Shown here in pieces: positions 1 to 48,246 of a stretch of 51,060 nucleotides of DNA (within the stretch, counting starts at the first letter, position 1; every line of letters begins with the position of its first letter). Where the stretch lies: contig CALVAW010000010.1 in the NCBI GenBank assembly GCA_944325655.1, forward strand, positions 1 to 51,060, written 5' to 3'. Below the pieces are notes generated by a model, which was not told the origin of the DNA, made no database searches, and worked only from the letters and a program-made list of their open reading frames with translations. The DNA is from Candidatus Gastranaerophilales bacterium (GTDB lineage Bacteria > Cyanobacteriota > Vampirovibrionia > Gastranaerophilales > Gastranaerophilaceae). The position numbers were made by a program, and so were the translations under genes.

Positions 1-231
1 TGTAATCATGGTTTGGATTCTTTAATTAATAATAGTGTCACAGCTTGTAACGCATCTGCTTTATGCTTAGGCTCTTATGCAAATTATTGTCATGCTTTTG
101 CTACTTGGTTTGGCGGCTCTACAAGTTCACTATATGCTTATATTGTAAGAATGGATACAGGTAATTTTACTTTAAGCAGTCAAACTGTTTTATACGGTTC
201 ATCTGTTCGCTGTGTTACTGAAATGGAATAA
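1..231 (+). CDS. C-terminal fragment of a secreted, probably prepilin- or FISUMP-like protein (5' end outside window)
   Basis: The reading frame is open from the first base and stops at 229-231, so this is the last 76 codons of a longer gene. The fragment contains four cysteines and many Ser, Thr, Gly and Asn residues, and ends in a 'GSSVRCVTEME' tail. A C-terminal 'SVRCV' ending is common in bacterial surface proteins of the FISUMP type and in prepilin-like cell-surface proteins; that comparison is from memory, not a search. Composition suggests an extracytoplasmic, disulfide-containing domain. It is followed 26 bases later by a hairpin terminator. The N-terminus, and so any signal or prepilin sequence, cannot be seen. 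Confidence 0.6.
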   Translation, partial: CNHGLDSLINNSVTACNASALCLGSYANYCHAFATWFGGSTSSLYAYIVRMDTGNFTLSSQTVLYGSSVRCVTEME

Positions 232-257
232 GTTTCATATTATTTTGTGTTTTAGTT

Positions 258-285
258 CGGGGTGTTAGGTACATCCCGTTTTTTT
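258..285 (+). terminator. Rho-independent terminator of the upstream secreted-protein gene
   Basis: An 8-bp stem CGGGGTGT (258-265) pairs with ACATCCCG (271-278), with one G-T wobble and a 5-nt loop, followed by seven T's (279-285). The in-frame GTG at 262 of the following ORF lies inside this stem, so it is unlikely to be the start of comF. Confidence 0.85.
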
Positions 286-300
286 GATATACTTATTTTA

Positions 301-966
301 ATGTTTTTGGGATTAAAAAATTATATTTTGTATATTTTTCAAACATTTTTAAATTTAATTTATAATCAAAAATGTTTAATTTGTTCTTGTTCAAAAACTG
401 ATAGTTTATTGTGTAAAAACTGTGCAAAAGATATACATTACTTATCAAGTTTTCCACATAAAATTTTTAATAATATACCTTTTTATTCGGCAACTTTATA
501 TGAAGGAATTATTAAAAAATTAATTCATAAATTAAAATTTAACCATAGAAAAAAAGCTTCAATTCCTTTAGCACAAATACTTTATAAATATTTTAATAAT
601 ATAAAAGAAGAAAAAGAATATATTATTACTTATCCTCCCAGTTTTTTCTTAAAATCCGCTCAAAGAGGATATAATCATATGTTTTTAATAGCAAAAGAAT
701 TTTCTAAATTAACCGGTATAGAAATAAATAAAAATTTAATTAAAAAAATAAAATATACAAAACCCCAGTATAAAGTTAAAAACAGACATAAAAATATTAA
801 AGGAAGTTTTAAAATAAATAAAAAAGAAATAAAAAAATTAAAAAATAAAACTATTCTTGTAATTGATGATATAACAACGTCGGGTGCTACTTTAGAAGAA
901 ATTATAAACTGTTTTATAATAAATAATATAGGTAATATTATATGTTTAACAATTTCAAAAACTTAA
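301..966 (+). CDS. comF: ComF family phosphoribosyltransferase-like protein
   Basis: A 221-aa ComF/ComFC-type protein, a family required for DNA uptake in transformable bacteria and broadly linked to handling of incoming ssDNA. An N-terminal zinc finger is seen as CLIC (about 25-28) and CKNC (about 38-41), and the PRPP-binding loop of type I phosphoribosyltransferases as VIDDITTSGAT (about 187-197). The frame is open back to 262, but that GTG is buried in the preceding terminator hairpin, so ATG 301 is chosen; no strong Shine-Dalgarno precedes it. An exact TTTTCCACA, the cyanobacterial-type DnaA box, lies inside the gene at 450-458. The family call is solid, but a role in competence here is inferred. 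Confidence 0.85.
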   Translation: MFLGLKNYILYIFQTFLNLIYNQKCLICSCSKTDSLLCKNCAKDIHYLSSFPHKIFNNIPFYSATLYEGIIKKLIHKLKFNHRKKASIPLAQILYKYFNNIKEEKEYIITYPPSFFLKSAQRGYNHMFLIAKEFSKLTGIEINKNLIKKIKYTKPQYKVKNRHKNIKGSFKINKKEIKKLKNKTILVIDDITTSGATLEEIINCFIINNIGNIICLTISKT

Positions 967-6081: not shown

Positions 6082-7155
6082 ATGTGCGCAGTTGCTAAAA
6101 CAATTGATGAAAAAGAAAAAGACGCAATTCAAGAAGGAAAAAATAAAGCATTAAAATTAGCTTTAGATAAGATTGAAAAAGATTTTGGAAAAGGCTCTAT
6201 TATGCGTCTTGGAGATAAAACTTCAGTAAACTGCGAATGTATACCTACAGGTTCTCTTGCGCTTGATATAGCATTAGGTATAGGGGGAGTTCCAAGAGGA
6301 AGAATAATTGAAATATATGGTCCCGAATCTTCCGGTAAGACAACTTTAGCTCAACATATAGTTGCAAATTGTCAAAAAAAAGGTGGTATAGCAGCTTTTA
6401 TTGATGCAGAGCATGCGCTTGATCCTGAATATGCTAAAAATTTAGGTGTTGATATTGATCAACTTTTAATTTCTCAACCTGATACAGGAGAACAAGCATT
6501 GGAAATAGCAGAGGAATTAGTTCGCTCCGGAGCTATTGATGTAATAGTTATAGATTCAGTTGCTGCTCTTGTTCCGAAAGCAGAAATAGAACATGCTATG
6601 GATGAACAGCAGATGGGTCTGCAGGCACGTTTAATGTCGAAAGCTTTAAGAAAGTTAACCGGTATAGTTGGCAAAACAAATACAACTGTTATTTTTATTA
6701 ACCAATTAAGACAAAAAATAGGTATAATGTTTGGTAATCCCGAAACAACAACAGGAGGTAATGCTCTTAAATATTATGCATCCGTAAGATTGGATATAAG
6801 AAGATGTGATAGTGTTAAAAATAAAGACAATGAAGATATTGGAAACAGAGTTAGAGTAAAAGTTGCAAAAAATAAAGTAGCACCTCCTTTTAAAGTGGCT
6901 GAATTTGATATTATATACGGAAAAGGTATTTGTGCTTTAGGTAATATAATTGATGTTGCAGTTAATTTTGATATTATTAAAAAAGCAGGTGCTTGGTTTA
7001 GTTATAATGATGAAAAATTAGGTCAAGGCAGGGAAAAAGCAAAAGAATTTTTGGAAGAAAATCCTAAAATTTTAGAAGAAATAGAATTAAAAGTAAGAGA
7101 AAAAATAGCTGCTAAAAATAAACCTGAAGAAAAAATCGAAGAAAAAAATAGCTAA
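6082..7155 (+). CDS. recA: Recombinase RecA
   Basis: A 357-aa protein of usual RecA length that forms ATP-dependent filaments on ssDNA, drives strand exchange and activates the SOS response where present. The Walker A motif GPESSGKTT is at about 80-88. '[17 protein letters not shown]', '[16 protein letters not shown]' and the loop-2 region '[17 protein letters not shown]' are intact. The C-terminus is a Lys/Glu-rich tail. The ATG is preceded by a GTGAGG-type ribosome-binding site about 7 nt away. It is transcribed divergently from kdsA. Expression control is unclear because no LexA operator is evident. Confidence 0.98.
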
Positions 7156-7212
7156 GCAATTTTTAAATAAATTACTTTTTATACTGAGAATATATTATAA
7201 AAGGAATTGTTC

Positions 7213-38671: not shown

Positions 38672-40732
38672 ATGAAGAAAAATTTTGCATTTAGTTTAGT
38701 TGAACTTATGATTAGCTTAATTACCATAAGTTGTATTGCTGCAGCATTTGCGCCTACTGTTACAAAAAGATTAACTAAAACAAACGTAACTATATCAAGC
38801 GGTGCTTCAGGCGAGCAGGTTGTTGAATTAATGTGTACTAATATGTTTGGTGATAATTGTATTAATTGTTCAAAAGACGAATGTACTATGTGTAAAATAA
38901 CGCATTTTTTAGCTGCCGATAAAACTTGTTCCGCTTGTCAAGCCGGTTATTTTTGTGATGGATCGTCAAATACGATGCCTTGCCATGATAAATTTGGAGA
39001 AGGTTGCATGACTTGCAATTCGGAAAAATGTATGGTGGCAAATTTAGGGTATTTTATAAACGAATCAGGTTATTCAATAGCATGTTCGACTCAATATGAT
39101 CCAAATTGCGGTTCTTGTAATGCTACACAGTGTAATGCTTGTAAAACAGGTTATAAATTTAACGAAAATAAAGAATGTATTGCAATATGTAATCCCGGAA
39201 GCAAAGAATATACTACTGCAGGAACATATACCTTTGATATTCCGCAAGGCTGCTCTACTTTAACGGCTACTCTTGTTGCAGGCGGCGGCGGAGGCGGCGG
39301 AGGCAGCATTGTTGAAAAAACGCAAACTTTTGTTACTATGGGTAATGGTAATATTACTGCTAATGCAAATAATGTTGTAACGGTTAATTCATCGGGAATT
39401 TTTACTTATGCTGTACCTGCAGAATTAAGAGGTAAATATTTTAAAGCTACAGCTTGCGGAGGCGGCGGCGGAGGCGGACAAAACGTTCCTAATCCAACAC
39501 GAGATCATGATTATGGTACTAAAGGCGGAAATGGTGGGTATTATCAAGATGTGTTAGTCCAAATGCCTAATGTTACAAGTACTCAAATTCAGGTTGGCGG
39601 AGGCGGCGGAACAGGCGGTCAAGCCGGTGGTTGTGCTTATGGCGGAGGCGGCGGAAAAGGCGGAATTTCGTGTGGTTCAGGTGCTAGCTGGGGAAAGGGC
39701 GGCCTATGGTGTAATGGCTCTGCAAGTGGAGGTTATGATCCTATTAGTGGGTTGAATGGTTCCGGAGGAGGCAGAGGCGTAAGTCGAGGAGCTAATGGAA
39801 GTTATTACGGCGGCGGAGGCGGCGGTTCTTATTCCGGGTATTGGCATACATATAATGATGGTGAAAGAGTTCATTTTTGTAGTGATGGAGCAGGCGGCGG
39901 CGGAGGCGGCGGCGGAGCTACATTATTTTATTTATGGCCTACAAATGCTTCACTTGTTGCAGGTGGTGGCGGCGGCGGAAAAGGCGGAGATGTTATAACT
40001 GATATTCCGTACGGCTATGGCGGAGGCGGCGGCGGAGGCGGCGGTGTGACCGCCGGTTCTGCAAATGGTGGTAGCGGTGCTAATGGTAGAATAGGTTCTA
40101 ATACTGTTTTTGGCAGTGCTTATTGTACCGGGGGTGAAATAAGCAGAAACGGTAAACCTGGTGCTATGAGAATTAAATATATAGGAGCTAATATAGGTGG
40201 TTCAGGTGGTGCAGCCGGAGCTATTGTTCCTAAACAAAAAATTAGTGCAACAGGCAGAATAACAATAGTTGTTGGAGCAGGTGGAAGAGGCGGAGCTGCC
40301 GGAAGCGGATATAATTCTGCCGGAGCTTATACTAATTCTACAAATGGCACCAAAGGCGGTCAAAGTATGATTAAAAACAGTTCCGGTGCTATTTTGCTTC
40401 AAACTGCACCCGGTCTTGGGGTTGGAAGTGAAGGAGGAACTACTACAGGAACTGCAACTGCTGCAGGCAGAATAACCAATGGTAAAAGTACCACTGCAAT
40501 ATCAGTAAGTGGATTTGCTTCAACAGGGGGAGCAAGAACTACTTCTAAAACTGGTACAGCGGGCGGAAAAACAACAATAGATGGGGCTAATTATTGTTCT
40601 GCAGGTGCCGGAAGTTCAGGTGCAGGCGGGAATGCTACAAGCTATGGCGGCTGCGGCGGCGGCGGAGGCGGCGGCGGTTATAAAGGAGGAAATGGTGCTC
40701 CTGGTTATGTAAAAATTGAATGGAGTTTGTAA
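38672..40732 (+). CDS. Prepilin fused to Cys-rich repeats and a very long glycine-rich domain (candidate pilin-borne adhesin)
   Basis: A 686-aa protein in three parts. Residues 1-30 form a type IV prepilin N-terminus: basic leader, 'FA' then 'FSLVELMISL', with Glu at +5 and Ala rather than Gly at -1. Residues 55-173 are Cys-rich, with repeated CxxC and 'C.AG.F' units as in furin/EGF-like or VSP-type repeats. From about 180, 'GTYTFDIPQGCSTLTATLVA' leads into poly-Gly blocks, a layout like bacterial Gly-rich domains and phage tail adhesins that form polyglycine-II bundles. 'GKPGAMRIKY' (about 495) and the C-terminal 'GAPGYVKIEW' suggest two Gly-rich modules. Pilus-tip adhesion is inference. It has its own promoter and terminator. 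Confidence 0.85.
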   Translation: MKKNFAFSLVELMISLITISCIAAAFAPTVTKRLTKTNVTISSGASGEQVVELMCTNMFGDNCINCSKDECTMCKITHFLAADKTCSACQAGYFCDGSSNTMPCHDKFGEGCMTCNSEKCMVANLGYFINESGYSIACSTQYDPNCGSCNATQCNACKTGYKFNENKECIAICNPGSKEYTTAGTYTFDIPQGCSTLTATLVAGGGGGGGGSIVEKTQTFVTMGNGNITANANNVVTVNSSGIFTYAVPAELRGKYFKATACGGGGGGGQNVPNPTRDHDYGTKGGNGGYYQDVLVQMPNVTSTQIQVGGGGGTGGQAGGCAYGGGGGKGGISCGSGASWGKGGLWCNGSASGGYDPISGLNGSGGGRGVSRGANGSYYGGGGGGSYSGYWHTYNDGERVHFCSDGAGGGGGGGGATLFYLWPTNASLVAGGGGGGKGGDVITDIPYGYGGGGGGGGGVTAGSANGGSGANGRIGSNTVFGSAYCTGGEISRNGKPGAMRIKYIGANIGGSGGAAGAIVPKQKISATGRITIVVGAGGRGGAAGSGYNSAGAYTNSTNGTKGGQSMIKNSSGAILLQTAPGLGVGSEGGTTTGTATAAGRITNGKSTTAISVSGFASTGGARTTSKTGTAGGKTTIDGANYCSAGAGSSGAGGNATSYGGCGGGGGGGGYKGGNGAPGYVKIEWSL

Positions 40733-40760: not shown

Positions 40761-40787
40761 AAACCGAGGTTTTATCCTCGGCTTTTT
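40761..40787. terminator. Bidirectional terminator between convergent genes
   Basis: CCGAGG (40764-40769) pairs with CCTCGG (40776-40781) around a 6-nt loop. Six A's precede and five T's follow the stem, so it can end both the glycine-rich prepilin gene (plus) and the ferredoxin oxidoreductase operon (minus). Confidence 0.88.
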
Positions 40788-47547: not shown

Positions 47548-48246
47548 TTATTCACCTTTTTGAATTGATTTTTGAAGCCATTCTTCTGCTCTTGCACCGA
47601 GAAGTATTTTTCCGTCAGCTCTAATGCCATATCCGAAGGGGTCTTCGCCTTTATCAATACCGTCTATATCCATGCAAAAAACTTTATAAATTAAATCAAA
47701 AGTAGAATTGGAATCCCAACCGCCAGGGTTTCCAAAAAGCCTTTTGCCGGTATCTTTATACTTACAAGCAAAATGGTGATGCGGGCTTACTTCATAAAAA
47801 ATAATACCATCAGATAATATGATTTCTTGTTTAGAATATTTTTTACAAAAATCATCTGCATCTTTTTTTAAATCTTTTGTATTATCTACACCGTTTACTA
47901 ATGAAATATGCAAATGAGCATTGTCAACCCCTTCGTCTTTATCTGTACAATCAGTTTCTTTTGTGCTTACAACATCCGCAAATGTTTCACAAAAATATGT
48001 TGCAGAACTAACTAAATTGCCATCCGGCATTTTACCTAAGTCACCATCAGCATAGTATTTATCCGAATTAACAAGCTCTCTTATAACAGTACCCAATGTA
48101 TTATTGCCTTTTTTAAATTTCATAACATTTTCATCAGGTGCGCTGTGAAATGCTATAGGAAGTAATATAGCAGTTAAAATTCCGATTATAGTTAAAACAA
48201 TCATAATTTCAGCTAAGGTAAAAGCTTTAAATAGATTTTTTTTCAT
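47548..48246 (-). CDS. Prepilin-type secreted protein (AFTLAE class)
   Basis: A 232-aa type II secretion/type IV pilus-like prepilin. The leader 'MKKNLFKA' is followed by 'FTLAEIMIVLTIIGILTAIL'; Glu lies at +5 and Ala at -1 of the cleavage site. The globular part has several cysteines ('YFCETFADV', 'TDCTDKDEG', 'DDFCKKYS', 'FACKYKDT') likely to form disulfides, and a 'SPHHHFACK' stretch. Ends with 'GADG'-type 'GIRADGKILLGARAEEWLQK'. GGAG precedes the ATG on the minus strand. Many such secreted pilin-like proteins are encoded in Gastranaerophilales genomes (from memory), usually of unknown function. Confidence 0.85.
   Translation of the reverse strand: MKKNLFKAFTLAEIMIVLTIIGILTAILLPIAFHSAPDENVMKFKKGNNTLGTVIRELVNSDKYYADGDLGKMPDGNLVSSATYFCETFADVVSTKETDCTDKDEGVDNAHLHISLVNGVDNTKDLKKDADDFCKKYSKQEIILSDGIIFYEVSPHHHFACKYKDTGKRLFGNPGGWDSNSTFDLIYKVFCMDIDGIDKGEDPFGYGIRADGKILLGARAEEWLQKSIQKGE

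Follow-up and report, generated by a model that had tools for sequence, protein, structure and literature searches.

A prepilin-like protein of a Gastranaerophilales bacterium with one glycine-rich domain apparently nested in another

The window analysed here, a stretch of 51,060 nucleotides from a Candidatus Gastranaerophilales bacterium, contains an intact open reading frame at 38672-40732 (+; ATG start, TAA stop) that encodes a protein of 686 aa. Judged from profile matches, the head of this protein comprises a full-length Gly_rich_2 domain (shell A) that appears to be interrupted at profile position 32/34 by another Gly-rich domain of this type (domain B). We consider the protein probably to be a modular prepilin-like adhesin displayed by a type IV pilus and carrying a nested, plug-in tip. 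The architecture is well supported, while export is suggested by the N-terminus and the machinery encoded in the genome, and adhesion by analogy with known systems. An earlier note on this DNA had interpreted the gene as a prepilin fused to Cys-rich repeats and Gly-rich modules, which holds in part, as it missed the nesting and the large, expanded family with exchangeable inserts. The features are listed in Table 1.

Table 1. Features of the 686-aa prepilin-like protein and its downstream region, with positions in the window
Feature	Residues	Position	Strand	Basis
Class III prepilin signal and hydrophobic alpha1-N (predicted)	1-40	38672..38791	+	PF07963 match
Cys-rich stalk (putative), 19 Cys	41-176	38792..39199	+	Cys count
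Shell A, N-terminal part: first strands and poly-Gly tract (profile 1-32)	177-213	39200..39310	+	PF21722
Inserted domain B (putative), divergent Gly-rich	~222-504	39335..40183	+	Weak PF21722 match and motif scan
Shell A, C-terminal part (profile 34-225), ending GAPGYVKIEWSL	505-686	40184..40729	+	PF21722
Terminator-like hairpin followed by a T run, downstream of the 686-aa ORF		40764-40781	+	

The prepilin cleavage site and transmembrane segment proposed earlier are supported by a PF07963 match and the FSLVE motif, together with a genome that carries a single prepilin peptidase, several T2SSE-type ATPases and a secretin. Cleavage is predicted between MKKNFA and FSLVE, which would leave a mature chain with Glu at position +5. 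The N_methyl profile (PF07963) covers residues 1-25 with 19.2 bits in the full protein and 21.5 bits when residues 1-177 are scanned (cut-off 21.2), and residues 1-40 are 67-85% identical to those of a paralogue and an orthologue. The predicted class III signal peptide with Glu5 and the extra non-pilin module (PF21722, E 8.8e-11) are both features by which modular type IV pilins are recognised. No globular pilin module was recognised after alpha1 by Pfam and NCBIfam profiles in the 686-aa protein, and its incorporation into a filament is therefore uncertain. Altogether the genome has 34 N_methyl matches when E values up to 1 are admitted, of which 29 exceed the cut-off, and one class of its prepilins has the common motif FSLIELMISLITISCIAAAFTPVVTKRL, mostly followed by Cys-rich repeats and then by differing heads (Gly-rich or Lcl_C-like).

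Other prepilins were also seen. For instance, one of a different family is encoded within the window at 47548-48246 (-; FTLAEIMIVLTIIGILTAILLPIA..SAPDENVMKFKKGNN), and several contigs of the genome end inside that family too. Elsewhere in the genome several prepilins are clustered (L059; contig C19, 10000-24000), one of them short, Gly-rich and with GEVIIRW at its end. Similar sets occur in other species (L074-L079), and the cluster is possibly the core minor-pilin set.

The earlier estimate of about 15-20 cysteines in repeats agrees with the 19 found in the putative stalk, for which the only profile match is a sub-threshold one to DUF4215. In three other prepilin loci of the source genome (L051, L052 and L058), the stalks score above the Pfam cut-off for the eukaryote-type Ephrin_rec_like profile and narrowly miss it for TNFR-like Cys repeats.

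The gene is preceded by AGGGAGTATATG, a ribosome-binding-site-like sequence just 5' of the start codon, and hairpins like the one downstream show no excess at that place over shuffled sequences. It stands alone, with no pilus genes beside it: a MATE transporter gene lies on one side and opposite-strand 2-oxoacid:ferredoxin oxidoreductase genes on the other. The source genome (1.69 Mb, 98.8% complete), of which the window is contig 10, possesses a close full-length paralogue (C1:96-1883, 63% identity), and a sister species has an orthologue with 56% identity. Two further copies of the shell C-half are found in the first 400-520 bases of contigs C34 and C36; they have stretches of 101-105 bp identical to the C1 paralogue, and their N-terminal parts were lost in assembly. 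Identical segments among the paralogues measure 44-68 bp in the signal and 65-105 bp in the shell. Contig ends fall inside several genes of this prepilin class, which had hinted at a phase-variable inversion at the prepilin N-terminus. This idea was dropped, since the contig ends tested are repeats common to several paralogues (exactly 55 bp shared by C18 and C47, for example), as short-k assembly would give.

Residues 177-686 (510 residues) contain 31% Gly. PF21722 matches the 686-aa protein in three stretches with 42.7 bits, which is far above the cut-off of 24.3 and hence shows that the Gly-rich region is not chance low complexity. Scored separately, the N piece of the shell (profile 1-32) gives 26.0 bits and the C piece (34-225) 22.9 bits. 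When domain B is cut out and the shell pieces are joined, a single stretch covers positions 1-225 of the 226 in the profile with 49.5 bits, and the same excision in the orthologue gives 52.9 bits. Domain B of the 686-aa protein alone reaches 8.4 bits over positions 2-221, below the cut-off, while that of the orthologue scores 36.1 bits, above it. A motif scan of domain B recovered N240-269, M281-315 and E493-503; these models were trained on family members and are descriptive, the Pfam excisions being the independent test. The two Gly-rich modules described earlier are thus both present, but they are not consecutive, as B sits inside shell A, and the start and end borders once taken for the edges of two modules both belong to the outer one.

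The Pfam excisions by themselves would fit a crossed pairing of the halves as well as a nested one. When non-Gly positions are compared within the trio formed by the 686-aa protein, the paralogue and the orthologue, identity reaches 59-72% in N1 and 52-61% in C2 and drops to 29-31% in N2 and 25-27% in C1. The pattern is clear for this trio and less clear-cut in the other pairs compared. Conservation of N1 and C2 as one unit, and of N2 and C1 as another, indicates that the halves are nested and not crossed. Between the paralogues and the orthologue the shell C-half is 65-71% identical.

The fold of the head was approached with AlphaFold2 models from two-sequence alignments. Predicted disorder had been named earlier as a reason to abandon the Gly-rich-fold reading; the models are not decisive in this respect, with overall pLDDT of only 31 (686-aa protein) and 40 (orthologue), yet ~65-84 for the shell strands, and with poly-Gly stretches below 50 and domain B low. 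Foldseek returned nothing significant for either model, and the fold evidence comes from a second look with VIA-align. For the orthologue model (pLDDT 40), the best match was the cyanophage tail fibre protein Pam3 gp24 (Z 9.9, 3.1 A, 150 residues), followed by the Bxb1 tail tip (Z 9.8), LTK (9.1) and ALK (8.6), and the next row fell to 3.9. These top matches align 137-152 residues over the range 3..416, which takes in the two parts of the shell. Viral jelly rolls matched weakly over about 40..243, corresponding to the insert. The model of the 686-aa protein itself (pLDDT 31) had its best match in the Bxb1 tail tip (9d93_Pa, Z 6.5).

Among solved structures, sequence searches turned up chance matches and no relative, the viral contigs scanned held no confirmed relative, and tblastn against phages found none, although low-complexity filtering possibly masks Gly-rich queries. 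Two minor tail protein families of PHROGs gave weak matches. A TNF-like plus Gly-rich fold is supported for the head by the orthologue model, in line with the earlier suggestion of Gly-rich domains of the phage-tail-fibre and ALK/LTK kind. Polyglycine-II helix bundles, also suggested then, may occur in the head; the poly-Gly stretches that would form them have pLDDT below 50 in both models. Salmonella phage S16 gp38, the phage example offered then, was not among the structural matches of the models, an absence that says little against such a bundle, and Pam3 gp24 and ALK/LTK appear from these models to be the better templates.

The split domain is widespread within the Ca. Gastranaerophilales family. 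PF21722 matches were found in 57 of 239 genomes, and among the 150 matches listed, 57 start at profile positions 30-36 and 18 end at 29-38. Border strands and profile are conserved in 13 of the 41 genera sampled within the family. With the 686-aa protein as query, matches were obtained in 22 out of 23 further genomes belonging to the genus and in none of the 15 genomes from the order's other families; the few PF21722 matches elsewhere in the phylum, outside this family, start at positions 3-18 and run unbroken to 225.

Across the family the slot is occupied by Gly-rich domains, by Lcl_C-like adhesin domains or by both, in up to three levels (L094, L095, L099, L106 and L194 among others). Excision restores an outer shell of 40.2 bits and a middle one of 66.0 bits in L106, 71.0 and 51.5 bits in L094, and an outer shell of 28.2 bits around an Lcl-like insert in L100. 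The innermost domains left after excision in relatives are either Gly-rich, with 14.6 bits and below the cut-off, or Lcl_C-like, with a sub-threshold profile match or none. The Lcl_C profile (PF07603) was absent from the 686-aa protein in the Pfam scan; among relatives it passes the cut-off in L040, and its matches in others stay under that value. Tandem, non-nested Gly-rich arrays also belong to the family (L084 and L098). In genome G018, about four tandem Gly-rich modules follow a Cys-rich prepilin N-terminus (L097:2225-4906 and L098).

Relatives also provide the evidence for exchange of inserts, which comes from their genes and not from the one at 38672-40732 and carries the caveat of short-read assembly of repeats. 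In genome G248, neighbouring nested genes (L192:4009-4760 and 6436-7187) share an identical Lcl_C-like insert of 752 bp, whose ends lie in or adjoin poly-Gly codons (GGN runs), while the flanking shells are ~50-65% identical; another place in this genome is 71% identical to part of the stretch. A trio in G229 has similar shells and unlike Lcl-like inserts, whereas the inserts of a trio in G261 are more alike than the shells. The occurrence of both patterns points to recombination, as differential constraint would hardly yield both. Paralogues in G009 are 80-98% identical in the stalk and 40-53% at the tip. Independent recombination of inserts and shells within the paralogue sets of relatives is well supported by these comparisons: near-identical inserts occur in differing shells and divergent inserts in shells that are almost the same, with joints at the poly-Gly stems.

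In our proposed model, the N-terminus would be cut by the prepilin peptidase and the protein exported through the type IV pilus/secretin machinery, with the Cys-rich segment forming a disulphide-rigid stalk. Shell A would be a TNF-like beta-sandwich whose strand loops extend as poly-Gly stems, and B, which diverges faster than the shell, would be plugged into the tip of the first loop to give a telescoped stack with B outermost. Inserts may move between shells by recombination at poly-Gly-coding joints, as seen in relatives. Most likely the protein would serve to bind a ligand on a surface, be it a host glycan, mucus or another microbe, and its specificity would depend on the insert. More tentatively, and with somewhat less than even confidence, we suggest a recursive adhesin system, in which the TNF-like/Gly-rich loop acts as a socket for its own copy or for an unrelated binding domain, over at least three levels, and the poly-Gly-coding DNA joints serve as recombination sites that let genomes shuffle tips among pilus-type stalks.

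Another explanation is that the protein resides in the envelope outside any filament, where the N-terminus would anchor it in the membrane or in a pseudopilus and the head would be a structural or surface-coat element. The short alpha1, the lack of a recognised globular pilin domain and the isolation of the gene from pilus genes would all suit such a protein, as would 34 N_methyl matches in one small genome, a number that probably exceeds the needs of a single pilus. We regard this as unlikely, given the single prepilin peptidase, the secretin and the several T2SSE ATPases, and the high conservation of the N-terminal motif, Glu5 included.

That the halves are crossed or in tandem, or form merely one enlarged Gly-rich domain, is very improbable: N1/C2 and N2/C1 are conserved as two units, unrelated Lcl-like domains occupy the same slot (L100, L095 and L106) and the mosaics break exactly there, although profile complementarity alone leaves crossing possible and true tandem arrays exist in the family. 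Under neutral low-complexity drift, slippage would lengthen the GGN tracts and most of the Gly-rich sequence would be disordered filler; the low pLDDT of domain B and of the poly-Gly stretches speaks for this, as does the ease with which GGN-rich DNA recombines. We find such drift scarcely credible in view of the border strands and profile conserved across genera, the similarity of the shell C-half between paralogues and orthologue, and the restriction of high-scoring fold matches to the TNF-like/Gly-rich class.

If the nested pilus-displayed adhesin is true, it would give small-genome gut Melainabacteria a way to large, changeable sets of surface binders, and provide a natural design by which domains are stacked at a loop; it would also link bacterial pilins structurally to ALK-type receptors and to the tips by which phages bind their receptors. 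In the literature searched, which included few subscription journals, no description was found of a Gly-rich domain nested in itself or used as an adhesin socket. The parts are known from modular pilins and from the Gly-rich TNF-like domains of phages and animals, and it is their arrangement that appears to be new.

For modular type IV pilins, more than 1,200 proteins with 264 architectures are reported in a paper whose main text does not contain the word 'glycine' (PMC8179133). Among them, PilB and PilC of Streptococcus sanguinis (PMC8179133) also combine a class III prepilin N-terminus with a large additional module that the pilus is believed to display; the 686-aa protein differs from them in having no recognisable globular pilin module and in carrying nested Gly-rich domains behind a Cys-rich stalk. 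Pam3 gp24 (PDB 7YPX) likewise has a TNF-like sandwich, Gly-rich loops and GGGGxGG motifs. Its poly-Gly loops extend from the TNF-like domain, and the tip at the far end is reported to be hypervariable and suggested to bind the receptor (PMC9608196). The socket would correspond, by analogy, to the first of these loops. However, gp24 is a chaperone-assembled phage fibre with one TNF-like plus Gly-rich unit and no inserted domain described. The extracellular TG/GRD domains of LTK and ALK (7NX1 and 7LIR) share the fold class with the orthologue model by structural alignment; they belong to animal receptor tyrosine kinases, and the likeness seen is a structural one. Lcl_C-like domains take the same slot or tip in relatives, and they resemble the C-terminal domain of Legionella Lcl (PF07603; PMC11162425); the glycosaminoglycan recognition is reported for Lcl itself and not for these relatives. 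Compared with Gly_rich_2 as defined in Pfam (PF21722), the domain in this bacterial family is recurrently interrupted at position 32/34.
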